A program made the translations under genes and the position numbers. This document shows, piece after piece, positions 7,202 to 36,751 of a stretch of DNA of 36,751 nucleotides. Where the stretch lies: positions 1 to 36,751 of IMG/VR virus record IMGVR_UViG_3300047359_000962; one strand, given 5' to 3'. The DNA is from a virus. Positions within the stretch are counted from its first letter, which is position 1. Each line of letters begins with the position of its first letter. Under the pieces are notes generated by a model, which was given only the letters and a program-made list of their open reading frames with translations, had not been told where the DNA came from and searched no databases.

Positions 7202-8623
7202 ATGAGTATTATAGATCAAAACTCAGGTGATACAATCAACGTATGGGTTGGAACGCAATCTGAGTATGATGCGATAACATCTAAAGATGAAGACACATTG
7301 TATTTCATCAAAGAAGTTGTGGATCCTCCAGGTCCAGAACCAGAACCTGAGCCACAACCAGAACCAGAACCGGAACCAGAACCGCAACCTGAACCAGAAC
7401 CAGAACCAGAACCGGAACCTGAGCCAGAACCAGAACCAGAACCGGAACCTGAGCCAGAATATCCAGATGGAGTTGAATATTGGATCGCAAGCCCTAGGTT
7501 TGAGTGGTCAGAATACGACTACCCAGATGATGGGACATTAAGCATTACCTTGATGGTGTTTTATAATGATCAAATAGCCTTCCAAGGAACATTCGATTCG
7601 CCGGATGATGTCCCTTTGAGTGTCACAGGTGTCGACGGAAACACTTATACCCGAGGAACATTAGAAGGTTCGTATGGTGCAGTTAACTCGAAATACTTTG
7701 GTGTAACAAAAACTTCTGGGTCGTCTGAACCACAACCAGAACCTGAACCACAACCAGAACCTGAACCACAACCGGAACCGGAACCTCAACCAGAACCTGA
7801 GCCGGAACCAACTATAGACGAAAACATTATGGTGGTAGGAACTGGTGTGCACTTCGAAAGTGACGTTAATGATGATCTTGAATTCAACAGTTTGTATACT
7901 GGATCAAGTCACAGACCAGCAATACAACTTGATACGGCACCGACTATTCAGAGATTGATCGACCTAGAAATGGAAAATGTATCGAATGTTACGGTCGGTA
8001 GATCTTTTAAAACGATCAAAGCGTCAGACTCTCATATATTAGCAAGCACCGACGAAAGTTTGATACAAGAGGATGGATCGTATGGACTCGGTGCGTTATA
8101 TGTCTACTCTTTAGTGGATATACAAAGAGTAAAGAACCTAGAACTTCATACTATGAATGTTACGGGATTAAAAGAAATTGCGACACAAGAGGGTCTTATG
8201 ACATCACAACAAGATGGTGTGTTGGATCCTTTCTGGAACAAACTTAACCTTGCTGGTAAACGAAAGGTTTTACAGCACTACTTACTTGACCCTAAAATTG
8301 TAACCAACGGTGGATACTCAACAGATACATATGTTGCTGAACCAGAACCAGATCTACCAAACAATCAACCTCATTGGTCAGGATCGGTCCCTAGGTATGA
8401 GTGGTCTGAGTATGTTGTCGAGTCAGATAACGACGACCCATCAACTTCACTTATTTTAATGTGGAATAACATTAAGGTGTATCAAGAAGAAATACCAGAC
8501 GGTCAAACAATTCCAAGTAGAATAACCACCGATGACGGAGATACTTATTTGAGAGGGGCTCTCAGAGGATCTTATGGTGAAAACGAACAATCAAACTACT
8601 ATAGCATCATAAGAGAGGGATAA
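7202..8623 (+). CDS. Modular tail fibre/adhesin-like protein with Pro-Glu linkers
   Basis: This 473-residue protein is built from separable parts. Residues 11-37 ([20 protein letters not shown] then TLYFI) are a short N-terminal element common in phage fibre and collar proteins. Residues 42-86 are an almost pure PEPEPQ linker. Residues 92-171 are a module with SEYDYPDDG and [15 protein letters not shown]. Residues 176-203 are a second PEPQ linker. Residues 207-378 are a middle domain I do not recognise ([30 protein letters not shown]). Residues 391-473 are a second copy of the first module ([34 protein letters not shown]). The same module recurs in three other genes. Repeated surface domains on acidic stalks suggest a virion-exposed adhesin or decoration. 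The start codon is one base past the previous stop. Confidence 0.6.
7325..7459 (+). repeat. Pro-Glu (PEPEPQ) linker repeat, first copy
   Basis: About 45 codons alternate CCA/CCT/CCG with GAA/GAG and occasional CAA, a 6-base period in DNA. The encoded stretch is acidic and proline-rich, expected to be an extended stiff spacer between the N-terminal element and the first globular module. Confidence 0.9.
7727..7810 (+). repeat. Pro-Glu (PEPQPE) linker repeat, second copy
   Basis: A second run of alternating proline with Glu or Gln, about 28 codons, separates the first module from the middle domain of the same protein. The 6-base DNA period matches the first linker. Confidence 0.9.
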
Positions 8624-10859: not shown

Positions 10860-10860
10860 A

Positions 10861-10868
10861 TATAAATA
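10861..10868 (+). promoter_or_regulatory. T4-type late promoter upstream of the 293-aa fibre gene
   Basis: An exact TATAAATA lies one base after the end of the 743-aa gene and 31 bases before the next start, followed by an AT-rich spacer and an AACAGGTAG stretch that can act as RBS. It is the only good promoter candidate for the block from 10900 to about 32800. Confidence 0.78.
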
Positions 10869-10899
10869 GAAAAATAAAACTTTAACAGGTAGATTATTC

Positions 10900-11781: not shown

Positions 11782-11783
11782 TC

Positions 11784-12941
11784 ATGGCAACAAGAACGGC
11801 CACGGCCGCCATAACCTTAACTGACCTGAAAGATGGTCAAGATTCAGTAACAGCGTTCTTAACTAACGAAAACCATTCATTCGTTGCTAACGACGCTGGC
11901 GTAGTACACCAAGACACTATAGGACTTTTCTCAAGTTATGTGAAAGTGTTTGTGGGTGGAACCCCACAGACATATTCTGTAGGAACCGAACCACAAGCTG
12001 GAAAGTTCGGAATAGGAACACTTGCTTCTTCATCTTCTGGTTGGGAATTCGTAGTAGACTCAAGCACTGGTGAAATTACAGCTGATGCTATTGGTATTGC
12101 TAATATCAACAAAGTAACAGTACCTGTCTACTACAACAACGCAGGATCAATTAATAACTTCAACTTAGAAATATCAGTAAACCGAGTTCAAGATGGTGCT
12201 GGTGGCACTGTCATTAACTTAACACCATCAAGCCAAATGTTCTCTGCTGATGCTAATGGTGTAATGCTACCAAGTCAGCTCGATGCTGATCTTGAAATCG
12301 ATGTCACCGGAAATCCTGGCGCACTCAGTTACGAAACCTCAAAGGACGGCCTTCCTTATGTCGCTCAGACATCAACAGGTGACAATCCAGGCGGAATCGC
12401 AGGATATGATACTGATGGGTCAGGAACATATTTAACAGGAACATTACCGACAAATTTGGGCAATGGTGCTCGACTTTTGATCAAGAAAGAAAACCTAGGC
12501 AGCAGCGTCGCTACACTAACGGTTCGCGTAAAAGGCGTAAATGCTGGAAAGGACGCAGTAACTTTTGCTAAAGTTCGATCAGGGGCTGGTGCGGTTTACG
12601 TCAACATCGTTCCAAATAACGGCGTCTTCCGTAATAATTCAGGCAGCCCTATTACTGCTATCGCTAAAGTCTATGATGCTACTACAGGACTTCCAATGTT
12701 TGATGCTGGAGATAATAATTACCCAAGAGTTCATTATGATTGGGAATACCTTGATGAAACACAGGTCTACTACAATACGGAAACTGGTGTGATTTCTACA
12801 GACGCTAATGGAGTTCCTTCTACTACCGGCACTGCTGCTGAAGGTTATGGACTTGATGAGCTTATTATTGGACCATCAAACGTTCCAGACACAGGCGAGC
12901 CAGTTAGCATTACTTGTACCGTTACTGTAACAACTGAATAA
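11784..12941 (+). CDS. Beta-rich tail fibre/tip-like protein, middle segment
   Basis: This 385-residue protein appears to be a chain of beta-sandwich domains. The N-terminal domain starts with VTAFLTNENHSFVANDAGVV; the same LTNENHS domain is found inside the 1348-aa protein (LDLTNENHSITAQNDGTLYN). A second domain begins at about residue 145 (VINLTPSSQMFSADANGVML). The third, from about 270 (VYVNIVPNNGVFRNNSGSPI), matches the end of the upstream 293-aa protein. There is no enzyme motif and no transmembrane segment. The RBS AGAGGA lies inside the end of the preceding gene, so the two are tightly coupled. The domain set suggests a shaft or tip protein working with the flanking ORFs. Confidence 0.58.
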   Translation: MATRTATAAITLTDLKDGQDSVTAFLTNENHSFVANDAGVVHQDTIGLFSSYVKVFVGGTPQTYSVGTEPQAGKFGIGTLASSSSGWEFVVDSSTGEITADAIGIANINKVTVPVYYNNAGSINNFNLEISVNRVQDGAGGTVINLTPSSQMFSADANGVMLPSQLDADLEIDVTGNPGALSYETSKDGLPYVAQTSTGDNPGGIAGYDTDGSGTYLTGTLPTNLGNGARLLIKKENLGSSVATLTVRVKGVNAGKDAVTFAKVRSGAGAVYVNIVPNNGVFRNNSGSPITAIAKVYDATTGLPMFDAGDNNYPRVHYDWEYLDETQVYYNTETGVISTDANGVPSTTGTAAEGYGLDELIIGPSNVPDTGEPVSITCTVTVTTE

Positions 12942-12969
12942 TTAATTTGATAACAAAGCGAGTTCCCCC

Positions 12970-15357
12970 ATGGCAACTGTAAAAACAGCTCAAGACACAG
13001 CTACTTTCGTAGACCTACATGATGGTACGTCAAGAGTAACACTGCAATACTTTTATAAGACTAGTGCAGATGCTAGTGAACCAACTGTACCACAGGGGAA
13101 CTTTGAATATAACTTTTTAAGTGGAGTACTGACTGCCAGTGTCTCCACTGCTTTTGATAACTGGTCGACCATTCCCGAGACCCTTTCTTTCTCAGAAGCA
13201 TTGTGGATGGTGTCCATCACATTAGAAGGTTCGACAGTATCTACCGCAACGTTTGATAAAGATGATTGGAACGGTCCTGTTGTTCTTTCACGTGTTGGTT
13301 TTCAACCGACACAACCAGATCCAGCAACAAGTGTTGCGACGGTCTTTATATTCAAAGCAGGTGCAAGCAATACCACGGCACCTACTGGAAATCCATCGGG
13401 CGACTTCACCTTCACTTATGCAACGGGTAATTTGTCAGGTGGGAATCTAAACGGGTGGTCTCAAGACTTACCTACTGTTGCCCCAGGAAATTATGTTTGG
13501 GTGAAGCAAGCAACTGCATCTAGCACTTCCACAACAGACACGATTCCAGCATCTGAATTTAATGCGAGCGCCGCAACTGTTTTATCAGGAACAGGGCTAG
13601 ACGGATACAACACTGCAGTCGTACAACTATACAACAAAAACAGTAATGCGTCAAGTGCTCCAGCAGACCCGACGGGTAGTTTCAAGCACACCTTTTCTAC
13701 TGGTTTGTTGACCGCAGAGTCCGGTGCTGATTTTAAAGGATGGACTCAGAGTGCTCCGTCAATCACAAACGGAGAATACCTTTGGGTCATTCAGGGATCT
13801 GCCGTTTCACGTGGATCTACAGACCTCATTGCGGGAAGTGAGTTTGGTGCCGCACAGATTGTCGGTGTTGGTGGTGAAAATGCTCTACCGTTAACTGTTA
13901 CTGATACAGACAGAGACGGACTGAACCAAACAATCACTTTGAGTGATGGATCAACGATAGTAATTAGTGACGGTAATCCTGCTACCAATGAAGGGGTTAT
14001 CGTTGTCTATGCATCGAATGCCAATGGCGCTGATAAGAGTCTAGCACCAGGACCTAATCTACAGTACGTAAGGTACTATGAGTGGTCGGGTACAAAACCC
14101 ACTCTAAGTGAGATACCAAATACCAATAATGGATGGGTCAAGTACATAGGTGAGAATGCTACCGATTCCGGCGTGATTCCTATCTATTCTCCTATCTCAG
14201 ACCCAGATGCAAACACCAATTTATCGTTGACCCTAGGTAGCAACACCTACGTGACGTTCTATGAGTGGACAATTACAAAACCGACATCGGTGCCTAGTGA
14301 CGCGCACACGAATACTTTCGTTCCATTCGTTGCTGTGTCTCCAACAATATCGACCAGTTATAATGCAACCACCGGAGTGACAACAGTCACTGTTGTTGAT
14401 ACAGACGGAAGCACGAACTTCGATATCACTGACGGGGATGCGGGTACTTCAGAAGGGGTCACAGTAATCTATGCAAATGATTCTAGTGGTGATGGTAAAA
14501 ATACTGTTCGACAGACTGGACAGGAATATGTCTTATATTATGAATGGGTCGGCATAGAGAATAAACCAAACTCTGACCTTTCCAATTTGACGGGTACTTT
14601 GGAATGGATCAAGTTCGTAGGAGAGACTCCGAACGCACCAGATGCACAAGGCATCATTCCGATTTATGCAAACAGAGCAAACCCAACACAAGATAGTCAC
14701 ACTTTCATATCTTATTCCACTGGTCGAAATTGGGTAACGTTCCTAGAGTACTCCGGAACCAGACCAACAAATGTACCTAGTGGCACACACGAACAAACAT
14801 TCGTCCCGTTCGTCGGAAGTAACGGTGACCCAGCAGGTCGATATTCAACATTCCGTGCATACAGTACAACAAGCACTACTCCACCAAGTGGTACTATCAC
14901 TTGGGCAACAGGTGCTGTCGTTTTAAGTGATACTACGAACTGGTCTCTGTCTGCCCCAGAGGTTGCAGTTTCACCGTCCACGACGGTCTATTGGTCAGAT
15001 CTTGTTTTTGTTGATGCTGATGGTGATGCGGAATATACTACAGACACAGGCAGTGCTGTACGATCATTGATCAGTTTCAATGGTGTGGTGTCGTTCACGA
15101 ACACCACTGCTGGAAGTATTGAATTAAACAACGACGGAACTCCAATTCCAGTTCTCGATCCGACATCGGTGGGCCCTGCAGGATCGACTGTAATTAACGG
15201 CGGTCGTATCGACGCCAATACGATAAAACTATCCGGTATAGAAAATAGTGGCGGCGCTACAACAGGAGATCAATCAGGTATGATCTTGAGCGACGATACA
15301 ATAACAATTCAAGATTCGGCAGGGTTGACAAGGGTCTTCATAGGAAAGTTGTCATAA
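12970..15357 (+). CDS. Tail tip/fibre-like protein with fibre modules and J-type C-terminus
   Basis: This 795-residue protein contains three tandem ~90-residue modules at about residues 23-110, 121-207 and 212-300 (LQYFYKTSADASEP; VFIFKAGASNTTAPTG; VQLYNKNSNASSAPAD, each followed by an F-strand, a GW or NW and a W-strand). Two ~145-residue repeats follow at about 312-455 and 475-618 (DTDRDG versus DTDGS, EGVIVVYA versus EGVTVIYA, YYEW, IPIY, TFVPFV). One more short module starts at about 625. The C-terminus has VSFTNTTAGSIELNND, STVINGGRIDANTIKLSGIE and ITIQDSAGLTRVFIGKLS, a layout typical of the end of lambda-J-like host-specificity and central-tip proteins. No T4 core homologue is apparent. 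The start (12970) follows a weak GCGAG. Confidence 0.62.
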   Translation: MATVKTAQDTATFVDLHDGTSRVTLQYFYKTSADASEPTVPQGNFEYNFLSGVLTASVSTAFDNWSTIPETLSFSEALWMVSITLEGSTVSTATFDKDDWNGPVVLSRVGFQPTQPDPATSVATVFIFKAGASNTTAPTGNPSGDFTFTYATGNLSGGNLNGWSQDLPTVAPGNYVWVKQATASSTSTTDTIPASEFNASAATVLSGTGLDGYNTAVVQLYNKNSNASSAPADPTGSFKHTFSTGLLTAESGADFKGWTQSAPSITNGEYLWVIQGSAVSRGSTDLIAGSEFGAAQIVGVGGENALPLTVTDTDRDGLNQTITLSDGSTIVISDGNPATNEGVIVVYASNANGADKSLAPGPNLQYVRYYEWSGTKPTLSEIPNTNNGWVKYIGENATDSGVIPIYSPISDPDANTNLSLTLGSNTYVTFYEWTITKPTSVPSDAHTNTFVPFVAVSPTISTSYNATTGVTTVTVVDTDGSTNFDITDGDAGTSEGVTVIYANDSSGDGKNTVRQTGQEYVLYYEWVGIENKPNSDLSNLTGTLEWIKFVGETPNAPDAQGIIPIYANRANPTQDSHTFISYSTGRNWVTFLEYSGTRPTNVPSGTHEQTFVPFVGSNGDPAGRYSTFRAYSTTSTTPPSGTITWATGAVVLSDTTNWSLSAPEVAVSPSTTVYWSDLVFVDADGDAEYTTDTGSAVRSLISFNGVVSFTNTTAGSIELNNDGTPIPVLDPTSVGPAGSTVINGGRIDANTIKLSGIENSGGATTGDQSGMILSDDTITIQDSAGLTRVFIGKLS
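13903..14823 (+). repeat. Two ~145-residue in-gene repeats
   Basis: Residues about 312-455 and 475-618 of the 795-aa protein repeat the same order of motifs: D-T-D-x-D/G, (I/V)xDGxxxTxEGVxVxYA, YVxYYEW, W(V/I)K(Y/F)(I/V)GE, GxIPIY, VTFxEW/Y, KPTxVPS or RPTNVPS, THxxTFVPFV. The copies are clear at protein level and diverged in DNA. Confidence 0.75.
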
Positions 15358-19700: not shown

Positions 19701-22355
19701 AATGTGGTACGTCGTATCAACACATACCTACCAACATTCTTCAGTCGACCTAATAATAGAATTAGATCTAAGGTTACTGAAAAAACAATTCAAGAATTTA
19801 TTGGCGAACGCATCTTAGACGTTGAAATTATTCCGTTCATGCGTTCACGTAAGATTAGTTTCCGTGTTCAAGGTCTACGACCTAATACAAGGCTCTTTGC
19901 TTATTTTGGAAACAAGAGTGTATCTGATTGGGTGCGACCAGAGTCTACTTACGTAAACTTCTCAGACGACCCTACTGAGTACGGTAACGAATATGCGAAC
20001 GCAACTTCGTACCCACCTGCACTAGGCGGCAAGGGAGATCTAGTAACAGATAGTAAAGGCGAGTTGATCGGTTCGTTCTTCCTGCCTAACACTCCGGATA
20101 TTGCTTTCCGCACAGGTCGTCAAGAATTCAAACTGCTTGACATTAGTGTAAATGATGAAGAAGAATCAACCACTATTAGTCGCGCGGGATACACTTCGGT
20201 AGGAACCATCGAGACAGTACAACGTACTATGCGTACAACACGTATTGTAGAAACAACTTACTGGCGTGATCCACTTGCGCAGACTTTCTTCGTCGATCAA
20301 GTAGAAAACCCCAATGGAATCTTTATTACTAAAGCGCATGTTTATGTTGAGAGTAAAGATTCTGTTATTCCTATGCAGGTTCAGATTCGAGCAGTAGAAA
20401 ATGGACTTCCTACTAACCGTATTGTTCCAGGATCGGTAAAGTTTGTCAATTCTGAAGATGTTACAGTAACACCTTTAGCAGACGCACAAGAACAAGGCAT
20501 AGATTATCTCTCTGGAAGAGGAACAGAAGTTGTATTTGATGAACCAATTTACTTGACTTCTGGTGAAGAGTATGCTATAGTGTTACTTGCTGAGTCTGTA
20601 GACTACAACGTATATACTGCTCAGACCTATGAGTTTGTCGTAGGACCTGACAATGACCGTCGTGTAAACCGACAGCCTACATTGGGTTCGCTATTCCTTT
20701 CACAGAACGGATCAACATGGACACCAGATCAAACTAAGGACTTGATGTTCAAACTAGATCGTGCGGAGTTTACTTCTTCTGGTGTACTACACCTAGAGAA
20801 CGCAGAATTGCCTAAAGTGACTTTGATTCAAAGTCCGTTTGAGACTACTGCAGATGAAGAAAGGTCAAATAAAGTAAATGTTCGGCATCAAGGTCACGGG
20901 TTTAGTCACGGGGACACAGTCGTTTTCTCTGACGTATCAAGTGATGTTGGAGGCGTTGGAGCAGATGTCCTGAATGGCGCTTTTGTGTTAGAGCACCCTA
21001 CATGGGAAGGGTATACTATCACAATACCTTCGAACGCTGAACGTTCGGCGCAGGGCGGAGGTAACAATGTTACTGCAACGCAACAAGTAGTATATGACCA
21101 GTATATTCCGCAAGTGCAGTCATTTACACCTAACATGACAAGCATTCAATCTACCGTGAAGAAATCTAAGGCGAAATCATATGGCGCGGGAGCTGCTGGA
21201 CGCACGTTTGAAAGGCATCCATACTCAGCAGACCCACAGCCGCCTAGAACACAAACTGTATCGTTGAATGATCTAAATGTCAATACTAACCCAAACGTTG
21301 TCGCTACTTCAGATAACGGTAGTGCCAAGTCTTTAGAGTTTGTATTGAATATGGCAACCAGTGACCCTAAAGTTTCTCCTGTAGTAGATCTACAAAGAGT
21401 TTCGATGGTCACCCTAGAAAATGTTATTGACGCGGGCAATGCAACTCAACACATTACAACACCTGTGATTATTGATGAGTTGTCAGAAGGTCTGAAGATT
21501 ATCTTCGCAGCGAACCGAGCACGTGGCGCAGAGTTTGAAGTCTACGCACGTACATCTCTGGATGAAAATGAGTTTGCAGACGCATGGTGGTACAGAATTG
21601 AAATTGACACACCAATGCCTACAGATGAGAATCCAGACATTTTCCGAGACTATGAGTACACACTAGACTCAGAACCATTTACTGTATTCCAAGTCATGAT
21701 TGTAATGAAGTCTGATAATTCATCTAAGTCTCCTATGATTACAGACCTTCGTGCGATCTCTTTGATCACTGCGAGTGGACTACAGAAAACAGGACAACAA
21801 GTAGATCTGGACCTAAATCCTGTAGATACACCTGCGCCAAGTCCTGAACCTGAACCTCAACCTGAGCCAGAACCTGAGCCAGAACCAGAACCAGAACCAG
21901 AACCTCAACCTGAGCCAGAACCAGAACCCGAGCCAGAACCGGAGCCAGAACCAGAGCCAGAACCGGAGCCTGAACCTGAGCCAGAACCTCAACCTCAGTA
22001 TGGCGAATATTACAGAGGGCAAGATGAACCTGAGTACTATTACGCTATGATAGACGCTCAAGGAAACGGCGATATTGGATTCGTTCCTCTTATTATGTGG
22101 AATGGCAATGAGGTGCCTTATGACAATTCACAATTGGAAAAGGAGGGCACTGTGATTCAAAATGGATTCTTGACTGGTACTGATGGAATGGTCTATTTGA
22201 GGGGATTCAACGAATCGTCTGGTTATATAAATGATACACAATACTTTTTCTATAGAATATTTCAAATAGATCCTGATGTTTTTGAAAACATCGACTTAGG
22301 TGATCTACAACAAATAGGGAATGTGCAGATAGACCTTTCAAACCTTTTACTGTAG
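16776..22355 (+). CDS. Giant DUF4815-type virion structural protein with C-terminal adhesin module
   Basis: This 1859-residue protein begins with a DUF4815-type region ([40 protein letters not shown], about residues 22-63) known from large structural proteins of cyanophage-like myoviruses. The body is beta-rich with no enzyme motif. At about residues 1366-1430 is an '[15 protein letters not shown]' to 'LNGAFVLEH' module, a kind that recurs in marine phage structural proteins. Residues about 1686-1741 are a PEPEPQ linker, and 1742-1832 a WN/YLRG module ([21 protein letters not shown]) like those of the 473-aa protein. The final [20 protein letters not shown] is a short tail. The RBS AGGATA precedes the start, 8 bases after gp8. 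Its role is probably baseplate periphery or fibre attachment, inferred from family and position. Confidence 0.75.
21831..21998 (+). repeat. Pro-Glu (PEPEPQ) linker repeat in the giant protein
   Basis: About 56 codons of alternating Pro with Glu or Gln, in CCA/CCT/GAA/GAG/CAA codons with a 6-base period, join the body of the DUF4815-type protein to its terminal WN/YLRG module. It is the same type of linker as in the 473-aa protein. Confidence 0.9.
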
Positions 22356-27711: not shown

Positions 27712-28140
27712 ATGATTTATTATATAGCGATCATTTCAAATAATGAAATACAAACACTGAAATTAGCTGGTGGTTCTAACCCACCAGAGGGACTACGAGA
27801 AGATGGATCAACCGTTGTTCATGTTGATTTTGTTATTTCAGATAAAAGAGAATTTATAGACACTCATTATTGGGATGGTGAGTGGAAAGAGAGAGAACCT
27901 AAGCCAAATAGATTCGCTAAGTGGTCAAACTCAGAATGGACATGGGACCCTGAAGACCTATTAAATGAACTCCGTATGCACAGAAATTCCAGATTAAGCG
28001 CCACAGATTGGACCCGTATGGACGACAATGGTTTAGATGACGATGACCGTGAAATATGGGCGATCTACCGTCAAGAACTGAGGGATATAACAAACCTATA
28101 CTCAAGCTTAGATGATGTGGTCTGGCCTGAATCGCCATAA
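27712..28140 (+). CDS. Tail (fibre) assembly chaperone, PF16778-type, first copy
   Basis: The C-terminus of this 142-residue protein has the clear tail-assembly-chaperone pattern: DLLNELRMHRNSRLSATDWT, R-x-x-D, then EIWAIYRQELRDITN and VVWPESP. In that family the block 'RN-x-x-L-x-x-TDWT ... W-x-x-YRQ-x-LRD ... V-x-WP' is conserved. The N-terminal half is a small beta domain (YYIAIISNNEIQTLKL). Such proteins help fold or assemble tail-fibre proteins and are coded next to them. The RBS AAAGAGAA precedes the ATG. A second member lies at 32856, also after a YGL-module gene. Confidence 0.82.
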   Translation: MIYYIAIISNNEIQTLKLAGGSNPPEGLREDGSTVVHVDFVISDKREFIDTHYWDGEWKEREPKPNRFAKWSNSEWTWDPEDLLNELRMHRNSRLSATDWTRMDDNGLDDDDREIWAIYRQELRDITNLYSSLDDVVWPESP

Positions 28141-28149
28141 GGAATCGTC

Positions 28150-28458
28150 ATGTCGTACGGATTAGAAATATATGGGCCAGTAATAGACAGTGCTGGGTCT
28201 TCTAAATTAGTATTTTCTGATAATATTCGCACTTCTAATATTCAATTATATTCTTCGTTTAGTTTGAGTAAGAATGAAATAAGTAGTGTGTATGCTTGCC
28301 CCGATGCCAACGATGATACTAAAATATTAATTATATTTGTGGGCAACCCTAGATATGTTGACGTGATCAACAAAACTTCGACTGGTTTCCAATTACAAAA
28401 TAATAGTGGTTCTAACGGTACACAGGGTGGTATTGTAATGGCACTGAGAATCTCATAA
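28150..28458 (+). CDS. Small YGL-module protein, second copy
   Basis: This 102-residue protein begins MSYGLEIYGPVIDSAGSS and continues as short beta strands (VFSDNIRTSNIQLYSS, ILIIFVGNPRYVDVI), ending GGIVMALRIS. It has the same length class, start motif and relative position as the 100-residue gene at 26635, but low identity otherwise. The upstream run AAGGAAT is its RBS, and its stop overlaps the next start as TAATG. I infer a fibre-tip component paired with the large downstream protein. Confidence 0.58.
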   Translation: MSYGLEIYGPVIDSAGSSKLVFSDNIRTSNIQLYSSFSLSKNEISSVYACPDANDDTKILIIFVGNPRYVDVINKTSTGFQLQNNSGSNGTQGGIVMALRIS

Positions 28459-31400
28459 TGTCATATGGTTTTAAAATAATAGGAAGTGATGCCGGAGGAA
28501 CGTTTACTGTATCCGACACAGAACTAGACATCCTTAATCTGATTGTCACAGACGCTGGTCGTGCACACTCGTTTACGCTTCCAGGTGGACTATTAGAAAG
28601 CGACATGATATTCGTTAAGAACCCGAGCGCGCCTGGTGGAGGCGATTGGAGTTCTGTTGATATTGAAGTGCCTTCAGATTATCTAATGACGGTAACTTTT
28701 GATACACCTTACCTTCACAAAATGAACGTGTCTGGAGAAACAGTAACATTTACTGGAACAGGCATAGAAGCGTACACCCCTCAACAAGACGGTCAGTTTG
28801 AAGGTTGGAAACTCGCAGTTTATAATGATTGGCAAACAGAGTTCGATTATTTTGTTGTCAGGAAAGCTTCTACTATTATGGCGGACCCAAGTCGATACGA
28901 CACTAGTATGAATTATGGGTTACGGGTTGTCGCAAGTAATGGTGAAGTCTCGTTTGATAGTCGTGCATTGGGCACCAATTATAATTTCGATATCGTCTCA
29001 TACTTACCACCCCTTCTTAGCAATAATGTGGGGACGGAATCTAGCTCCTATGTAATGACCAAAGATGCGGACGAATATGTAAATATTGAATGGTCTGCTA
29101 CCGACTCATCTGGTTCAGGCATGTTTAACTCAAATTGGGCGACGTCGAACTTTTTCGGTCTAAGGATCGGTAGCACAATAGCATCGGCTTATGACGCTAT
29201 TGTCGCTGATCAAAACGATAATCAGAGACTCCAATCCTATCCTACAGGCAGCCTCATAGGGGCAACTTTAAGACTGGGTGGATCTGGCGCCACTGTACCT
29301 CCTGATGATGGCGGCGATGTTGACACAGATAGTGACGGTATCGGTAATCCAAACGCTACTGGATCTCTATCATACCAATCAGGGTCTGCAATTACAGAAG
29401 GAAGTTCTATTACGTTCAATGCGAATACTTCTGAAGAAGGCGCATATCATGTTCGAGTATTTCAAACTTCAGGTTCTGGGAACGATCTAGGGTCAGACAG
29501 AGTATCTTTCTTTGGCGATACCAAAAGCGCAACATTCACAACAACTTCCCCTACCTCATCAAGGTCAGTCTCATACACCAACGTCGCCAATTACATAGGC
29601 ACATACTCAAGAAACAGTGTTGCTTCATACTCTCGAACTGTAGCAGGATCGTTCTCAAGAGATTTTGCTGGTAATTATGTTGGAGAATATACCGGAGAGT
29701 ATTCTGGAGCATACGCTCGAACAAGAACAAGTACTTATGATAGAACAAGAGTTGAAGGGTACGCACGATCTTTTTCTGCGACATATTCAAGAACCAGAAC
29801 CTCTGCATATGTAGGGACATACAGCAGAACAGATACTACGAATTACTCTAGAGAGTTCTTGGGGATATACACAGGAAACTTCACAAGAAATTCTACATTA
29901 ACTGAAATACAAGAGTACTCTAGAAACCTTCCCAATGGTGAAGTTGCATATTATTTTAGAATGCCAAGTACGGTAACATATAGTCGCACACGTTACTCTA
30001 CCTACAACCGAAGCAGACAATCTACCCGAACTTCATCGTATGCTCGTAGTTATGGTGCATCATATATTGGCAACTACAGTAGAGACTATACAAGATCGAG
30101 AGTTTCTGCATATACCAGAGATCGTACTGTAACCTATTCGGGATATTATGCTAGAGAGTTTACAAGAAACTCTGTGCTTTCTGGGACCGAGTCCTATTCA
30201 CGACAAGTTGAAATTGAACCTGGTGAATTTGAAGAAATTTTTTTCACAAGAACACCAGACGCAACAAATTACAGTCGCACACGTTACTCTGCATTTAGTC
30301 GCACTAGAGGCGTGACTCGTAACGAGTATTACTCTAGTACATATACTGCAACTTTTACTGGGGACTTTATTGGCAACTACGGACGGACCAGAGTTACGAA
30401 TTTTGTAGGTGATTATGCGAGAACGACTAGCGCAAGTTACACTGGTAACTATGCTGGTGACTATACTAGGGTGGGGTCATACGCTAGAAATTATCTTGGG
30501 AATTATGTAAACCCAGCAGTAGAATTTACTCGCACATCTACCCGTACGCGATATTCTGCCTATAGTCGCACCAGAACAAAGGTCAGTTCTTATGCTAGAG
30601 ACTTTACTGGAAATTATTTCCCAGCCGACTCTACAAGAACCTTATATTATATAGGAAACTATTCTCGTGGATTCACACGCAACTTTACGAGAACTGTTGG
30701 TTACGAAGGCACTTACACAGGCAACTATGTTGGCGACTTCGCTGCAGCAGGAAGAATTAGTACTTTTACTGGTAACTATTCTCGTGGATATACACGTACC
30801 ATTGGCGATGGATATTTTTACACTGCAAACAACACTTTCTTCTCAGTTGATACTAATACTAGTTATGACGAAGGGTTTTCGGTCACAGTACATGTCACCA
30901 ATATTAAATGGAACGGAACAACGAAAGTACTTAATAACACGCGGGATTATGGCAACGGTCCAACTAAGTTAAAAGGTAACGATAACATTTATTACTGGAG
31001 AGGTGATTTAATCGCTACAATAGGTGGCACCAAGTATTATGAAGTTGGTCAAGGAACCACAAGTTCTACCGCGGCCCCTACTGGAACAACTACTGAATAT
31101 ACGCGTAATTTTACTAGGGATCGTACTCAATCATTTACCAACGGCGCGACATATTCCAGTGAATTTACTGCTCCGTTTACAGGCACTTACTCGCGAGACT
31201 TTAACTATGCGAGGGACTTTATTCGTGGATACACTCGCACAAGAACTGGAACTGGATACTATGCATCTACCAGAATATCTACATTACCTGAGACTGATAT
31301 AAATGGTGATCCTATAGAATATGAGGTTCCGCATGATGGGTATGCTAGAGTAAGGTCCTCTAGTTATAGTAGAACTTTTTATTATGAAGGTAATTATTCA

Positions 31401-32807
31401 AGAGGGTTTGCTGGAAATTATACGGGTAACTACACAAGATCTATAGATTATACTTTCAACTATTCCCGCAACTTCACTAGAACGCTATACTATAGTAGAA
31501 ACTTCATTCTCATAAGAACTTCTACTTTTGAGGGGAACTATTCACGCACTTCTGTGGGCAACTTTGCGGGCAATTATAACAGAACAAGAATAACAGATTA
31601 CTCTAGAAGTCGTGATTCGGCATATACTAGGTCCTATAGTACTGGGTTTGTAGGTGAATATGCGCGTGGGTATGTTGGAGATTATGTCGGTAATTTTGCG
31701 GCCAACTTTGTTGGTAATTATAGTAGAAACTATTTTGGAAACTATACTGCAAACTTCGAAGGAAACTATTCACGCAACTTCGGTGGAAATTATAGCAGAG
31801 AATTTACTCGCACAAGAGTTACACAAGGGGCTGGATATTTTACTAGAGACTTCCTTGTAGGCAATTACACTGGAAACTATGCACGTGGGTATGTTGGAGA
31901 GTATGTAGGCAACTTCGCTGGTAACTACACAGGCGATTTCTTAACACCATTCACTGGAAACTATACTGGCGAGTTCTCTAGATCAATAGGTTCTAACTAT
32001 GTTGGTAATTATTCGCGAGACTTCGCTGGCAACTATACTGGAAACTATTCTCGTGACTATACAAGGTCTTTTGTAGGAAACTACAGTAGGAACTTTATTG
32101 GGGATTATACTGGCGCTTATGAAGGCACTTATAGTAGAACCAGTACTCGCGCCAGAAGCAGTTCTTATACAAATACATTTGGTGGCGCTTACGAGAGAAC
32201 ATTTGTAGGAAACTATACAGGAAACTTCATAGGTAAGTATACACGTAACGGAACAGGAAGTCAAGAAGATTCTGAAATTGGATGGCAAGGGGAAACGTTC
32301 GTTGCTGAGTTGAGAACAGGCAATACTTCATCCTTAATGTCAGAACCTAGAGGTTCTTCTAATGTAAGAGTGCTTGACTCAAAGTCATTTACGTTATACG
32401 ATAACGATATTGGCACTATTTTGTCAACGACTCAAAATATCGTACACCATAGCGCGACGACACATACCGTAGAGTTTGATTTTAATACGCAAGGGGATCA
32501 GGCAGTTCAAGGTAGAATTTATAATAGCGGACTAACCCTACTTCAATCGTTTACCATTCAAAATGCTAATGGCGCTCAAACTGTTACTGTCTCGGACGTG
32601 CCTGCAGAAGGGCAAACAAAACAATATACGATTGGATTCTATAATGGAAGTCAGTGGTTAAACTCTGGGGAATATACAGTCACTAAAGTTTCTAGTAATG
32701 CAACTGATTCTACGCCTTCACCAGCACCTGCACCAGAACCATCGCCTGCACCAGAACCAGAACCATCACCTGAACCTGATCCAAATGAAAATATTGGGCT
32801 TGAATAA
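28458..32807 (+). CDS. Giant YGL/tyrosine-tetrapeptide-repeat fibre protein
   Basis: This 1449-residue protein starts with two YGL modules: MSYGFKIIGSDAGGTFTVSD, and MNYGLRVVASNGEVSFDSRA from residue 151. An Ig-like domain follows at about 298-362 (GSLSYQSGSAITEGSSITFN). Residues about 371-1265 are a repeat with an aromatic, Arg or Ser at every fourth residue (GNYTGNYARGYVGEYVGNFA; SRTRTSAYVGTYSRT). It is interrupted at 783-866 by a WN/YLRG module (IKWNGTTKVLNN, DNIYYWRGDL). The C-terminal part is beta-rich (VEFDFNTQGDQAVQGRIYNS) and ends in a Pro/Glu/Ala tail (PAPEPSPAPEPEPSPEP). I do not recognise the repeat as a characterised fibre fold. A long shaft or surface-binding region is an inference from repeat length, virion context and the chaperone gene downstream. 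Confidence 0.65.
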   Translation: MSYGFKIIGSDAGGTFTVSDTELDILNLIVTDAGRAHSFTLPGGLLESDMIFVKNPSAPGGGDWSSVDIEVPSDYLMTVTFDTPYLHKMNVSGETVTFTGTGIEAYTPQQDGQFEGWKLAVYNDWQTEFDYFVVRKASTIMADPSRYDTSMNYGLRVVASNGEVSFDSRALGTNYNFDIVSYLPPLLSNNVGTESSSYVMTKDADEYVNIEWSATDSSGSGMFNSNWATSNFFGLRIGSTIASAYDAIVADQNDNQRLQSYPTGSLIGATLRLGGSGATVPPDDGGDVDTDSDGIGNPNATGSLSYQSGSAITEGSSITFNANTSEEGAYHVRVFQTSGSGNDLGSDRVSFFGDTKSATFTTTSPTSSRSVSYTNVANYIGTYSRNSVASYSRTVAGSFSRDFAGNYVGEYTGEYSGAYARTRTSTYDRTRVEGYARSFSATYSRTRTSAYVGTYSRTDTTNYSREFLGIYTGNFTRNSTLTEIQEYSRNLPNGEVAYYFRMPSTVTYSRTRYSTYNRSRQSTRTSSYARSYGASYIGNYSRDYTRSRVSAYTRDRTVTYSGYYAREFTRNSVLSGTESYSRQVEIEPGEFEEIFFTRTPDATNYSRTRYSAFSRTRGVTRNEYYSSTYTATFTGDFIGNYGRTRVTNFVGDYARTTSASYTGNYAGDYTRVGSYARNYLGNYVNPAVEFTRTSTRTRYSAYSRTRTKVSSYARDFTGNYFPADSTRTLYYIGNYSRGFTRNFTRTVGYEGTYTGNYVGDFAAAGRISTFTGNYSRGYTRTIGDGYFYTANNTFFSVDTNTSYDEGFSVTVHVTNIKWNGTTKVLNNTRDYGNGPTKLKGNDNIYYWRGDLIATIGGTKYYEVGQGTTSSTAAPTGTTTEYTRNFTRDRTQSFTNGATYSSEFTAPFTGTYSRDFNYARDFIRGYTRTRTGTGYYASTRISTLPETDINGDPIEYEVPHDGYARVRSSSYSRTFYYEGNYSRGFAGNYTGNYTRSIDYTFNYSRNFTRTLYYSRNFILIRTSTFEGNYSRTSVGNFAGNYNRTRITDYSRSRDSAYTRSYSTGFVGEYARGYVGDYVGNFAANFVGNYSRNYFGNYTANFEGNYSRNFGGNYSREFTRTRVTQGAGYFTRDFLVGNYTGNYARGYVGEYVGNFAGNYTGDFLTPFTGNYTGEFSRSIGSNYVGNYSRDFAGNYTGNYSRDYTRSFVGNYSRNFIGDYTGAYEGTYSRTSTRARSSSYTNTFGGAYERTFVGNYTGNFIGKYTRNGTGSQEDSEIGWQGETFVAELRTGNTSSLMSEPRGSSNVRVLDSKSFTLYDNDIGTILSTTQNIVHHSATTHTVEFDFNTQGDQAVQGRIYNSGLTLLQSFTIQNANGAQTVTVSDVPAEGQTKQYTIGFYNGSQWLNSGEYTVTKVSSNATDSTPSPAPAPEPSPAPEPEPSPEPDPNENIGLE
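29568..32250 (+). repeat. Tyr/Arg/Gly tetrapeptide repeat array, first gene
   Basis: About 890 codons follow a four-residue period (12 bases) with pattern x-(Y/F/R/S)-x-(G/R/S), such as GNYT, GNYA, RGYV, GEYV, GNFA. The array is broken by a non-repeat module at 30804-31055 and by short loops (for example near 29911-29960 and 31276-31340). Arginine is often AGA here. Confidence 0.9.
30804..31055 (+). other. WN/YLRG module inserted in the tetrapeptide array
   Basis: Residues 783-866 of the 1449-aa protein leave the repeat pattern and show FSVDTNTSYDEGFS, VHVTNIKWNGTTKVLNN, LKGNDNIYYWRGDLIATIGG and TKYYEVG. This matches the order of the module seen twice in the 473-aa protein and once at the end of the 1859-aa protein. 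Confidence 0.65.
32719..32790 (+). repeat. Pro/Ala/Glu-rich C-terminal tail repeat
   Basis: A short run of PAPEPSP and EPEPSPEP codons ends the 1449-aa protein. It is related in composition to the PEPEPQ linkers but includes Ala and Ser, and nothing folded follows it. Confidence 0.75.
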
Positions 32808-32818
32808 AGTTAAATCAG

Positions 32819-32826
32819 TATAAATA
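32819..32826 (+). promoter_or_regulatory. T4-type late promoter upstream of second chaperone
   Basis: An exact TATAAATA lies 29 bases before the start at 32856, in the 48-base gap after the 1449-aa gene. AAGGTTAA before the ATG can serve as RBS. The chaperone may therefore be expressed separately from the giant protein. Confidence 0.75.
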
Positions 32827-32855
32827 ACAATCAGATATCAAAGGTTAATTTAATC

Positions 32856-33335
32856 ATGGAACTAAAATACATCGTTTATGTAGATAAAGTGTCTGGTAAA
32901 ATAAATAGGATTTCATATCCTACTTTTAAAATAGACCCAGCCGGAGTCTCTGAAGACGGAAAAGAGTTAATAATTCATATAACAGAAGATAATATTCCTG
33001 CAGGATGCGAAGATCTTCGACACTTTATGAGTTATTATTGGTATGTTCCTTCTGAGGGAGAATTTATCTTCATTGGAAATGCCCCTAATAGGCATGCCAC
33101 TTGGAGCAATGAACTAGTTGGTTGGGAGTTTAACCGAGAAGATTTACTGAACGATATCAGAGTAGAGAGAAATAGAAAATTATCATTAACAGATTGGACT
33201 CAAGCGGCGGACAGTCCTTTGACTGAAGAACAAAAAATAGAATGGAAAAATTACCGCCAATCATTAAGAGATGTTACAGATAATTTGGGAGCGATACTTT
33301 CCGTCGCGGAAGTAAATTGGCCCGCAACCCCTTAA
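32856..33335 (+). CDS. Tail (fibre) assembly chaperone, PF16778-type, second copy
   Basis: This 159-residue protein is a paralogue of the chaperone at 27712. The shared C-terminal block is DLLNDIRVERNRKLSLTDWT, then SPLTEEQ, WKNYRQSLRDVTD and VNWPATP. The N-terminal half differs (YIVYVDKVSGKINRISYPTF) but also looks like a small beta domain, and a WSN-x-x-V/E-W motif before the block occurs in both. It has its own late promoter and is followed by a terminator. Lying between two genes with tetrapeptide repeats, it probably assists one or both in folding or trimerisation; which one cannot be told from sequence. Confidence 0.85.
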   Translation: MELKYIVYVDKVSGKINRISYPTFKIDPAGVSEDGKELIIHITEDNIPAGCEDLRHFMSYYWYVPSEGEFIFIGNAPNRHATWSNELVGWEFNREDLLNDIRVERNRKLSLTDWTQAADSPLTEEQKIEWKNYRQSLRDVTDNLGAILSVAEVNWPATP

Positions 33336-33352
33336 CACTTAGGGGATTTTTT
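33328..33352 (+). terminator. Rho-independent terminator after the second chaperone
   Basis: CCCCT (33328-33332) pairs with AGGGG (33341-33345) around an 8-base loop, followed by A and six T. The stem is short (5 bp, four GC) and overlaps the gene's stop codon, but the T-run and its position just before a new late promoter support a terminator. Confidence 0.65.
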
Positions 33353-33354
33353 AT

Positions 33355-33362
33355 TATAAATA
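33355..33362 (+). promoter_or_regulatory. T4-type late promoter upstream of the last gene
   Basis: An exact TATAAATA directly follows the terminator T-run. The distance to the GTG start at 33422 is 59 bases, longer than for the other three late promoters, leaving a leader of about 50 bases. Confidence 0.75.
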
Positions 33363-33421
33363 TACCTATGTCATTACTGCAGTGATGGCAAAACTAACTT
33401 TAACTTAAAGAGAGCGATATC

Positions 33422-36400
33422 GTGTCAACATCTAGTATACCACTAAAAATTAAGAATGCTAATGGTGACCTACAGGAATTTACACCTAGTCAAGAATCTT
33501 ACTTGGCGTGGAAGGTGAGTGAAGCACTAACATCGGCCGCTGTTAGTGAAACAGGTAGCCTCAGCCTAACTGATGGTGTTAATATTGGTTCGTTTGTAGA
33601 TACATATTACAACGAAACAGCAGGGACGCACCCTGCATCAAACATCACCAGTACCACAGTAACCACAACCTTGAAACAGGTTGGTGGGGTTGCTGATGAG
33701 TCTGATGCTAATTTTGTACGTCCTGTCGGATACTACGAAGTAGGTCCAAATCCTGGTTTCTATGAAATGACGGATGCAGATCTAGATCTTCTTACTACTC
33801 GTGCGCTAAGCACGATAGAATCTAATTCTGAGGAGGGGATTTACAGACTATCTGCGACCCCACCAAGCCCTGATTATAAGGTTGTCGTGTCAAGTGTCTT
33901 TACAGATACTCGTGGCGACGGAACAACAACTGATTATCATATCTGGCAAAAAGATGGTTCGTTTACCTTCCCTGATGAACCTACACGACCAGTTTCCATT
34001 TGTTATGACGGTTCGTCTTTTGACGGGTTCAAAGAGATGACAGATGATCAGATTAAGATTACATTTGGTCAACGCGCCAAGACATTACGATCAGTCCCAG
34101 GCGCAATTGGATCTTATCAACTAAGATCTTCTGCACAAGGTGCCCCTATCTTGCCAGGAACATGGCATGCAAGAGGAACCGCAGAGAACACTCGACGCAC
34201 AATCGTAGATACTGATTACACTCGTAATCGTGTTTCTTCATATGCTCGTACACGTATCTCGGCTTATAGTCGTGATCGTATTTCATCATATACTCGTAAC
34301 AGTGTCAATACTTTCTCACGTACTTTCGTAGGAGATTACACTGGTGCATATACACGTGACTTTACTGGTAACTATACTCGCGGATTTGAAGGCAACTATG
34401 CCCGCACACGAACCTCAACATATGACGGTACGTATGCCCGCACACGTGTTTCAGCATATACACGTAACCGACTAACTGCGTTTACTGGATACTTTGCAGG
34501 TACTTACAACCGTGCACGTGTTTCAACATACACTCGCAACCGTGTGACTAACTTCACAGGAACCTTCTCACGTAGTCGTGCATCTTCGTACACTCGTGGT
34601 CGTGTCTCTTCTTACGCTGGTACTTACTCGCGTACTCGTAGTTCTTCATACTCTGCGAACTATACTCGTACTCGTGTATCTTCATACACAGGCACTTACT
34701 CAGGCACTTACTCACGTAACCGTGTTTCTGCTTATGCGGGCACTTACTCACGTAACCGTGTTTCTGCTTATGCTCGTACATCTACACGTACACGCGTCTC
34801 TGCATACACTGCAGATTACACACGCACTCGTGTAACTAACTACACTCGTGATCGTGTTACCAACTTTGCTGGCGTTTACTCACGCGCACGTGTATCTTCA
34901 TATGTACGTAACCGTGTCACTAACTTTGCTGGTAACTTTGTAGGCAACTACTCACGCAGTTTCCAAGGCAACTATGCACGTAACTTTGTAGGCAACTACT
35001 CACGTGGGTATGCTGGCAACTATGTCGGTAACTACGCTCGTGTTTCAACACGTACATCTACACGTACTCGTTACTCTGCTTATGCTCGTACACGTATTAC
35101 TAACTACGTCGGGAACTTTACCCGCATACGTGTTACTAACTATGCTGGCAACTTCGTAGGCAACTATGCGACCACATTTACTGGTGACTTCGTAGGTAAC
35201 TATTCTCGCAACTATGCGGGTAACTACACTGGTGACTTTGCTGGTAACTATGCTCGTACTTCAACTCGTACTTCAACACGAACACTAAACTATACCCGTA
35301 CATTGTACTATACTGGTAACTTTGTCGGTAACTATGCTCGCAACTATTCTGCGGCATATGCTACAACACCAGCATATAGTCGTTCTGTATCTTACGCAGG
35401 TGACTTCGTAGGCAACTATGGTCGCACACGTGTTTCATCATACGCAGGTAACTATAGCCGTACTCGCGTAACTGATTATACTGGTAACTACATAGGCAAC
35501 TATTCACGTAACTTCACTGGTAACTACTCAAGAGCGTATGGCGGAGATTATAGTCGTACCGGATATTATACACGTAACTTCACTGGTAACTACTCAAGAG
35601 CGTATGGCGGAGATTATAGTCGTACCGGATATTATGCACGAACAGTCACAAGTAACTTCACGCGAACCTCTGTAAGTCCGCCAGGAAACTATGTTGCGGC
35701 CAATGGTGCAATTACGGCATTCTGGGGTAATAACGCATTTTGGAGTCACTGGTGGATTGTACAACCAGGATTTCCAGGCGAACCAGGAGAAGTTCGCGTT
35801 TACTGGGCAAATTCACTAAAAGCAACATACTACGGCGAAAATACTGATCTTACCAGTATACTTGGTACTGACGGTAACAGGTATTATAGAGACGTTCAAT
35901 ACCAAGGTGGAAGTCACTACAAAGTATATCGAATACGTTATACGGCCGCTTACTTTACGGGTAACTATGCAGGAACCGCGAGCCAAACATACACGCGTAA
36001 TCTGTATTACTCAGGCGCTTACTCGCGTAACTTCACCCGTGTGCGCGCGGGATCTTACACACGTAATCTGTATTTCTCAGGCGCTTACTCGCGTAACTTC
36101 TCCCGCGTCAATCAACAGTCGTACGCAGGGACTTACGCTGGTACCTATACTGGCAACTTCGTAGGCAACTATGGTCGTACAAGCCAAGCGTCTTTCGCAG
36201 GTAACTACGCACGTACGTCAACACGCGCTCGACCAGCAACGTTATATTACACACGTACATTGTATTACACAGGTAACTATGCTCGTGCGTTTACTCGCGA
36301 CCGTACTGCTGTATACACCAACACTGGTAACTATACACGTACTGGTTACTATGCTGGTGACTTCGTAGGTGAATACACTCGTAACCGTACTCAGGTCTTT

Positions 36401-36751
36401 TCACAGAACTATGCTAATAGCTATGCCCGTACTCGCGTTACTAACTATGTTGGCGACTTCACTCGTGATCGTGTGACTAACTTTGAAGGTAACTTTGGTG
36501 GTAACTACACAACAACCTTTACTGGTGACTTTGTAGGTAACTATGCTCGTGGATTCGTTGGTGACTTCGCTGGTAACTATACTGGTGAATATACTCGTAC
36601 ATCAACACGTACACGTTATTCTGCTTACACACGTACTCGCGTATCGGCATATGTCCGCAACCGTAACTCTGCATACACACGTGATCGTGTGACTAACTTT
36701 GCGGGTGACTTTGCTGGCAACTACGCACGTACATTTACAGGCAACTACTCA
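33422..36751 (+). CDS. Giant tyrosine-tetrapeptide-repeat protein, open at window edge
   Basis: The frame is open from GTG at 33422 to the window end, 1110 codons with no stop. An RBS (AAAGAGAG, 33407-33414) lies 7 bases before the GTG, so this is a real start. Residues 3-43 (IPLKIKNANGDLQEFTPSQE, SYLAWKVSEAL) resemble an N-terminal element seen in marine phage structural proteins. The region to about residue 260 is a globular beta-rich part (YYNETAGTHPASNITST; GDGTTTDYHIWQKDGSFTFP). From residue 264 the chain is a four-residue repeat (TRNRVSSYARTRISAYSRD; GNFVGNYSRSFQGNYAR), interrupted at 764-840 by a WN/YLRG-like module (VRVYWANSLKATYYG, TDGNRYYRDVQY). It is a paralogue in style of the 1449-aa protein but has no YGL module. 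Role inferred: long fibre or adhesin. Confidence 0.8.
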   Translation, partial: MSTSSIPLKIKNANGDLQEFTPSQESYLAWKVSEALTSAAVSETGSLSLTDGVNIGSFVDTYYNETAGTHPASNITSTTVTTTLKQVGGVADESDANFVRPVGYYEVGPNPGFYEMTDADLDLLTTRALSTIESNSEEGIYRLSATPPSPDYKVVVSSVFTDTRGDGTTTDYHIWQKDGSFTFPDEPTRPVSICYDGSSFDGFKEMTDDQIKITFGQRAKTLRSVPGAIGSYQLRSSAQGAPILPGTWHARGTAENTRRTIVDTDYTRNRVSSYARTRISAYSRDRISSYTRNSVNTFSRTFVGDYTGAYTRDFTGNYTRGFEGNYARTRTSTYDGTYARTRVSAYTRNRLTAFTGYFAGTYNRARVSTYTRNRVTNFTGTFSRSRASSYTRGRVSSYAGTYSRTRSSSYSANYTRTRVSSYTGTYSGTYSRNRVSAYAGTYSRNRVSAYARTSTRTRVSAYTADYTRTRVTNYTRDRVTNFAGVYSRARVSSYVRNRVTNFAGNFVGNYSRSFQGNYARNFVGNYSRGYAGNYVGNYARVSTRTSTRTRYSAYARTRITNYVGNFTRIRVTNYAGNFVGNYATTFTGDFVGNYSRNYAGNYTGDFAGNYARTSTRTSTRTLNYTRTLYYTGNFVGNYARNYSAAYATTPAYSRSVSYAGDFVGNYGRTRVSSYAGNYSRTRVTDYTGNYIGNYSRNFTGNYSRAYGGDYSRTGYYTRNFTGNYSRAYGGDYSRTGYYARTVTSNFTRTSVSPPGNYVAANGAITAFWGNNAFWSHWWIVQPGFPGEPGEVRVYWANSLKATYYGENTDLTSILGTDGNRYYRDVQYQGGSHYKVYRIRYTAAYFTGNYAGTASQTYTRNLYYSGAYSRNFTRVRAGSYTRNLYFSGAYSRNFSRVNQQSYAGTYAGTYTGNFVGNYGRTSQASFAGNYARTSTRARPATLYYTRTLYYTGNYARAFTRDRTAVYTNTGNYTRTGYYAGDFVGEYTRNRTQVFSQNYANSYARTRVTNYVGDFTRDRVTNFEGNFGGNYTTTFTGDFVGNYARGFVGDFAGNYTGEYTRTSTRTRYSAYTRTRVSAYVRNRNSAYTRDRVTNFAGDFAGNYARTFTGNYS
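34705..34776 (+). repeat. 36-bp tandem duplication
   Basis: A unit starting CACTTACTCACGTAACCG at 34705 is repeated from 34741, almost identical over the 36 bases and differing only at the last few. It encodes 12 residues, exactly three tetrapeptides, so the frame and register are kept. Confidence 0.85.
35505..35636 (+). repeat. 66-bp tandem duplication
   Basis: The unit 35505-35570 (starting CACGTAACTTCACTGGTA) is repeated at 35571-35636 with one mismatch at the final base. It encodes 22 residues (RNFTGNYSRAYGGDYSRTGY as its core). This near-identity indicates a recent duplication. Confidence 0.93.
35711..35941 (+). other. WN/YLRG-like module inserted in the second tetrapeptide array
   Basis: Residues 764-840 of the last protein break the repeat: ITAFWGNNAFWSHWWIVQPG, VRVYWANSLKATYYG, TDGNRYYRDVQYQGG, YKVYRIRY. 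The order resembles the modules in the 473-, 1449- and 1859-aa proteins, with RG replaced by RD. Confidence 0.55.
35996..36110 (+). repeat. Second 66-bp-spaced imperfect duplication
   Basis: CGTAATCTGTATT occurs at 35996 and again at 36062, each followed by a near-identical stretch (CTCAGGCGCTTACTCGCGTA). The spacing is 66 bases, 22 residues. The two copies differ at a few bases, so they are older than the duplication at 35505. Confidence 0.8.

Follow-up and report, generated by a model that had tools for sequence, protein, structure and literature searches.

What structure does a protein adopt in which an aromatic residue recurs at every fourth position over hundreds of residues? The question is raised by two genes at the right end of the virus record IMGVR_UViG_3300047359_000962, whose 36,751 bases, analysed as a whole, we call the window. 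Gene A (28458..32807, ATG start, 1449 amino acids) is complete, and gene B (33422..36751, GTG start, at least 1110 amino acids) runs off the contig end; both, like all other window features named below, lie on the plus strand. The module that the window holds, from baseplate to fibre, is that of a T4-like myovirus, with hub, tail lysozyme, baseplate wedge and fibre-connector-type proteins. We argue that A and B are best explained as tail fibres or adhesins of a marine T4-like myovirus, with a shaft of aromatic tetrapeptides that would form an extended beta-type fibre, and we put the probability of this explanation at roughly 0.55.

A reading made from the nucleotide letters alone (the sequence-only reading) had described two open reading frames (ORFs) with a strict period-4 repeat totalling more than 1600 residues, and both ORFs indeed carry it. 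Protein A has 100 Tyr/Phe pairs four residues apart where shuffling of its residues gives 33.0 +/- 5.0, and B has 87 where shuffling gives 29.7 +/- 4.4 (z about 13 in either case). Aromatic spacing peaks at 4, 8, 12 and 16 only, which bears out the claim that the period is unlike that of collagen (3), pentapeptide repeats (5) or coiled coils (7). A hidden Markov model (HMM) of the tetrad places 723 residues of A in the lattice (residues 376-1264, interrupted) and 754 of B (residues 265-752 and 845-1110). The repeat is thus long, but the in-lattice sum of about 1,480 falls short of the total that had been given; likewise the register is real, but the lattice is not strict, since non-repeat inserts and register slips break it. 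B extends beyond the contig end, and its closest relative (L012, full length at 9983-14578 of its record) is longer by about 400 residues and ends in a conserved C-terminal cap. Between tetrads of the same residues, codons in A are shared at chance level (0.416 observed, 0.426 expected); the pattern of A is therefore old and has been maintained at the protein level. In B, codon sharing of 0.62 against an expected 0.50 reveals some more recent copying.

The four positions of the lattice, p1 to p4, have distinct preferences, as tallied over 12,283 tetrads. At p1, G, R and S prevail (38, 34 and 12 per cent, with T at 6), and at p2 N, T and D (31, 24 and 14 per cent, with A at 9). Position p3 is occupied by Y, F, R or S (48, 26, 18 and 5 per cent) and p4 by T, A, V or S (26, 22, 20 and 15 per cent). 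Two flavours of block, GNY and RTRVSAY, had been reported to alternate; both exist and share one register, but residues at p3 and p1 do not mix freely, because the p3 residue strongly fixes the p1 residue that follows two places on. Among 4,958 distinct octapeptides, R at p3 is followed by S/T 640 times, by G 27 times and by R 8 times; F at p3 is followed by G 829 times and by S/T 31 times; after S comes mostly R, and after Y either R or G. A tetrad with R at both p1 and p3 is never followed by R at the next p1 (0 of 1,985 cases). Side-chain volumes are anticorrelated between p1 and p3 (r = -0.42) and uncorrelated between p2 and p4 (r = 0.01). Conservation follows the same alternation: column identity between homologues, given as two values per position, is 0.74/0.79 at p1 and 0.73/0.75 at p3, against 0.40/0.41 at p2 and 0.37/0.36 at p4. 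At 29 aligned columns p3 is R in some homologues and Y/F in others, and the p1 that follows changes with it (R followed by S/T in 307 instances and by G/R in none; Y/F followed by G/R in 448 and by S/T in 12). This coupling may reflect compensation within a packed face, or the exchange of whole units. Alternating conservation of p1 and p3, together with coupling between residues i and i+2, is what would be expected of a beta-extended chain that buries one face.

The model that we favour can be outlined on these grounds. The very long shaft of B would be held by a folded domain at the N-terminus and a conserved cap at the C-terminus, and would itself be an extended beta-type fibre. Positions p1 and p3 would lie on one packed face, in which G (or, after Y, also R) stands two residues after an aromatic, S/T after R and R after S, and p2 and p4 would point outwards, free to vary. 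Folding probably needs oligomerisation together with a chaperone encoded upstream; phage fibres are usually trimers. The length of the shaft and the adhesin modules inserted into it would then set reach and receptor choice. A more speculative addition is that two downstream enzymes of related loci glycosylate or hydroxylate the shaft. A bolder version, which we regard as tentative and on balance improbable, would make this a new fibrous fold: beta-type, with a packed ladder in which Tyr/Phe-Gly and Arg-Ser alternate, tolerating charge from strongly acidic to basic, exceeding 3,000 residues, accepting lectins as plug-in modules and carrying modifications made by a glycosyltransferase and an oxygenase that are dedicated to it and encoded alongside.

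Several observations weigh against an ordered beta-type shaft. At the 29 co-varying columns the flanking p2 and p4 residues differ too, and the p3/p1 coupling could partly stem from whole-unit copying (RTRVSAY replaced by RNFVGNY, for example) or from the way MAFFT aligns repeats. Where runs of aromatics are interrupted, the excess of even slips is modest (23 of 42 short slips, p = 0.003 against an expectation of 1/3, in contexts that were clustered only, without phylogenetic correction). At the same locus in two more distant relatives, L257 and L261, the shaft retains its composition without period 4. Finally, AlphaFold2, run on the monomer with 33 homologues, leaves the mixed shaft entirely as coil at a predicted local distance difference test (pLDDT) score of about 25. 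For the C-terminal part of L012, which is rich in GNY, it gives a solenoid-like model at a pLDDT of about 30-50 only. AlphaFold2 has thus yielded no confident shaft model for the monomer.

Some of these points would follow naturally if the shaft were an intrinsically disordered sticker-and-spacer polymer, in which aromatic residues and arginine act as stickers and G/S/T/N as spacers, forming an adhesive brush, flexible and self-associating, with the register a relic of unit duplication. The coil prediction fits such a polymer, as does a composition dominated by T/Y/R/G/S/N/A, in which K, C, W and M are nearly missing; so do related shafts that keep the composition while the aromatic spacing shifts to 6 or 7, and the coexistence of acidic and basic versions. 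Plain spacers, however, should not make the choice between G and S/T at p1 depend on the residue two before, nor should p1 and p3 hold while p2 and p4 drift. Moreover, register is regained past interruptions (in 153 of 220 distinct contexts in which an aromatic run is broken), and in A the codons have been randomised with the pattern still kept. We therefore consider disorder unlikely, though deserving serious weight. For the slips, a count based on the HMM (84 of 129 even) was set aside, as stretches rich in R and S/T can be read in two registers, and the aromatic-only count was used.

A single-chain beta-solenoid with about 12 residues, or three tetrads, per turn is a further conceivable form of the shaft. 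The L012 model, in which strands of 2 or 6 residues and turns of 2 residues frequently follow a 12-residue pattern, would suit it, and tetrad identity has a local maximum at a lag of three. AlphaFold2, however, predicts beta-solenoids too readily for perfect repeats (PMC11795689), so that the L012 model is no evidence for a solenoid, and the best Foldseek hit of the low-confidence shaft model has an E value of 0.28. Mutual information and tetrad identity peak at 3, 6-7, 11, 14, 18 and 21 tetrads, and the spectra of individual tracts differ (2, 2.75, 3 and 3.6 tetrads), which speaks against any single turn number. A fixed number of tetrads per turn was rejected for this reason, and duplication of sub-repeats accounts for the peaks as well as geometry does. 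The low confidence of the model tends to speak against a simple monomeric solenoid, and we judge this form of the shaft decidedly improbable.

The claim that no solved fold matches the repeat was upheld by a sequence search of the Protein Data Bank (PDB; phmmer against its chains, no meaningful match) and by fold searches with two largely low-confidence models, in which neither the N-terminal domain nor the shaft model retrieved anything at E below 0.001. A MORN-like PDB match to the profile of the alignment of B homologues (A1) was dismissed at E 3.6. One caveat is that two tetrapeptide filaments, 9ikm (TLP-4) and 9ufe (OCM3), are solved as regular period-4 chains; their units are T/A/S or P/S/G/Q, with no aromatics in the stretches shown. 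We take both to be CryoSeek glycofibrils, environmental in source and coated with glycans.

The nearest known repeat is the GNVT repeat in tail fibres of cyanophages and roseophages (S-RIM2, Syn9, S-P4, P-TIM68, CRP-1 and S-TIP37). It too has period 4, with G at position 1, N/D at 2, a hydrophobic residue at 3 and T at 4, and it has matches in 86 phage records, where the annotation is mostly tail fibre or structural protein. Homologous to it or not, the window repeat has this lattice and the G/N/T preferences, but has aromatic residues or Arg at position 3 and R/S at 1, whereas the GNVT repeat has aliphatic V/L at 3, no arginine grammar, tracts of tens of residues and other flanking domains. 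Matches of gene A to S-RIM2 concern the plain GNVT repeat and were discounted. A tail-fibre shaft built on tetrapeptides thus appears to be of a kind already known, of which the aromatic/Arg version seems to be new. The GNVT repeat in turn weakly retrieves constructs of T4 gp5 (E 0.004-0.04) and the family Gp5_trimer_C (E 0.0017, below cut-off). The triple-stranded beta-helix of gp5 is built on VxGxxxxx, with a VxG motif and N/D at surface positions (PMC4576200); its hydrophobic-x-G recalls the Y-x-G of the window and its N/D positions the N at p2, but its period is 8, with V and not aromatic/Arg. In the PDB the window repeat does not retrieve gp5, and neither A nor B matches a Gp5 family in Pfam. 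The pairing of Tyr and Arg with G/S/N/T spacers also resembles what we take to be typical of FUS-like sticker-and-spacer low-complexity proteins, from which the window repeat differs by a strict register and a p3/p1 grammar held across hundreds of residues.

How widespread is the repeat? The N-terminal domain of B (residues 1-264, 33422..34213), modelled by AlphaFold2 at a pLDDT mostly of 70-92 over residues 1-230 with a dip to 50-55 at residues 61-80, retrieves 28 IMG/VR loci, and the repeat itself retrieves 123 stretches, of which 72 distinct loci were kept. Among 50,697 phage records gene B occurs only in the isolate-type record of Phage C48C1 (Kyanoviridae, 156 kb). Its CDS0201 (OQ984149), an unannotated hypothetical protein of 3,347 residues, is a direct homologue of B, 63% identical in the N-terminal domain and 46% over 752 residues, and differs from it in a longer shaft and several folded inserts. 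Searching the cellular genomes of 84,980 species with the repeat returned no relative; no model in Pfam or NCBIfam covers it, PHROGs gives only a weak match, to a family whose function is unknown, and nothing relevant to the repeat or to C48C1 turned up in literature searches. The cap ...YTLYVR(V)A closes 79 proteins after redundancy removal, some of them fragments cut by contig ends; in 77 the middle section is long enough to measure and spans 368 to 3,901 residues, with medians of 18.5% aromatic, 12.7% arginine and 0.1% lysine. The longest slip-free run has 903 residues (L073). The repeat is part of a large marine family of Kyanoviridae type.

Placing A and B in the tail rests on their surroundings as well as on their architecture, and their virion location and receptor role are what we infer. 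Baseplate hub and wedge genes lie upstream in the window, and tail fibre genes flank the C48C1 homologue on both sides. Each repeat gene is preceded by a tail-assembly chaperone of family PF16778 (PHROG 4912, tail fiber assembly), at 27712..28140 for A (E 1.5e-16) and at 32856..33335 for B (E 9.1e-18); the latter immediately precedes B, and between the former and A lies one small ORF. In more distant relatives the same locus carries other aromatic shafts (GSRNY, GTRNF) with the N-terminal type and the cap unchanged, so that at one locus the shaft is replaced. L257 (1530-6739) and L261 (3025-6733) have GSRNY or FQGTRN units with aromatic spacings of 6 and 4.

The shaft is also interrupted by folded modules. 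In L068 (ORF at 4298, residues 3097-3283) a LamG lectin (PF13385, E 4.3e-16) sits between tetrad tracts, and the insert of B (residues 753-844, 35678..35953) is of a type that recurs in another window protein, 7202..8623, which an independent HMM of shaft inserts finds at E 1.7e-6 and 4.8e-4 (hhalign E 1.9e-6). Both the LamG domain and this shared module are in keeping with a shaft serving to display adhesins, and the folded inserts are probably better candidates for glycan binding than the shaft itself. The other large shaft inserts match no confident Pfam family. The module, about 90 residues long with a consensus like W.G...G.(T/Y)YxRG, is common to the B insert and other virion-type proteins, often between Pro/Glu linkers; two copies are found in 7202..8623, one between its Pro/Glu linkers (7463..7720) and one at 8327..8617, and another lies near the C-terminus of a 1859-residue protein (21990..22274), a segment that was included in the models and is thus not independent. 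One of the 33 B homologues in alignment A1 matches FG-GAP_2 (5.6e-15) within its first 600 residues.

The sequence-only reading had offered a phage shaft or a surface binding glycans or nucleic acids. The former agrees with the gene context, chaperones, caps and adhesin inserts. A case for nucleic-acid binding by a surface rich in Tyr and Arg, with host DNA or extracellular DNA as possible ligands, could be made from the 13% arginine and 20% aromatic residues of the tracts and from the 113 R+K against 32 D+E in the repeat of B. Against this, net charge per residue ranges from -0.14 to +0.11 in the 77 same-cap fibre proteins, and a relative with a Y lattice at the same locus (L260) has a net charge of -288 in 2,252 residues; such acidic relatives speak against nucleic-acid binding. 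The repeat, furthermore, is nearly free of lysine, which is usual in nucleic-acid binders. We regard this role as scarcely credible. The acidic Tyr-lattice fibres of L260 (3-6758) and L268 (1-6651) have units like GQYERSQDQTY, a net charge near -290 and almost no lysine.

Downstream genes raise the question of whether the shaft is modified. In related loci B is followed by genes for a 153-residue protein, a glycosyltransferase (GT)-like protein and an oxygenase-like protein, in this order. In C48C1 (L009) the latter two lie directly downstream of the giant repeat gene (28587-29312 and 29312-30016). Of the loci examined, 75 have the GT-like gene and 68 the oxygenase-like gene; among phage records only C48C1 has them. 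The shaft could therefore be pictured as a near-linear tetrapeptide chain coated in ordered glycans, like environmental glycofibrils, with the downstream enzymes performing the modification. Such a coat would be in keeping with the tetrapeptide filaments in the PDB and with the sugar-nucleotide enzymes annotated in C48C1. It would also agree with the finding that, wherever a GT-like locus extends far enough upstream (77 loci, the other 3 being truncated), a tetrapeptide gene adjoins the GT-like gene. The GT-A-like protein has an invariant D-x-D, and of 15 members 10 have a weak match to Glycos_transf_2 (E 0.001 at best); homologues of the next protein have an invariant H-x-N...H...R, suggestive of 2OG-Fe(II) oxygenases. 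However, searches of Pfam and the PDB lend the oxygenase assignment no support, and N-x-S/T sequons are not enriched (1,368 observed, 1,566 expected). The same cluster adjoins non-tetrad shafts as well, and its enzymes may have the host surface as their target, or their presence may be a matter of lineage. Both enzyme assignments are weak, and we hold a glycan-coated linear chain to be very doubtful. Within the beta-type model, glycosylation or hydroxylation of the shaft by these enzymes may occur, and should be taken as a lead and not as a result.

In an ocean virus group that is nearly absent from isolate collections, one of the largest proteins consists largely of this repeat. If the shaft is ordered, it would be a fibre of as yet unsolved architecture, with rules simple enough (G after F, G or R after Y, S/T after R) to be checked on short synthetic segments, and of interest to materials design; if disordered, it would be a natural polymer of aromatic and arginine residues, unusual in its regularity and displayed by a virus. 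Either way it opens a path to the lineage's adhesins, since the folded receptor-binding candidates are inserts of the shaft.

The layout of the two genes may be completed as follows. The fibre-type protein A begins with a non-repeat part of MSYG type (residues 1-375, 28458..29582), for which Pfam gave no confident match (CBM_35 at E=0.07 only). The HMM then places tetrad tracts at residues 376-490, 507-573, 602-720 and 725-781 (29583..30800), followed by an insert outside the tetrad states (residues about 782-877, 30801..31088), which has no Pfam match. Further tracts occupy residues 878-894, 898-942 and 962-1264 (31089..32249), and a non-repeat C-terminal part with a Pro/Glu-rich tail at its end (32250..32807) matched no confident Pfam family. 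In B, the N-terminal domain conserved in the 28 IMG/VR loci and C48C1 leads into a tract of 488 residues (265-752, 34214..35677), the insert and a second tract (residues 845-1110, 35954..36751) that is open at the contig end. Small proteins of 157-285 residues with the same kind of repeat occur near the large genes in L084 (5861) and L103 (7054 and 7587). In the stretches of C48C1 (OQ984149) that were read there are seven tRNAs (Thr, Asn, Leu, Asp, Tyr, Ser and Ala), with genes at 26148-59506, six of which, tRNA-Tyr among them, serve residues of the repeat.

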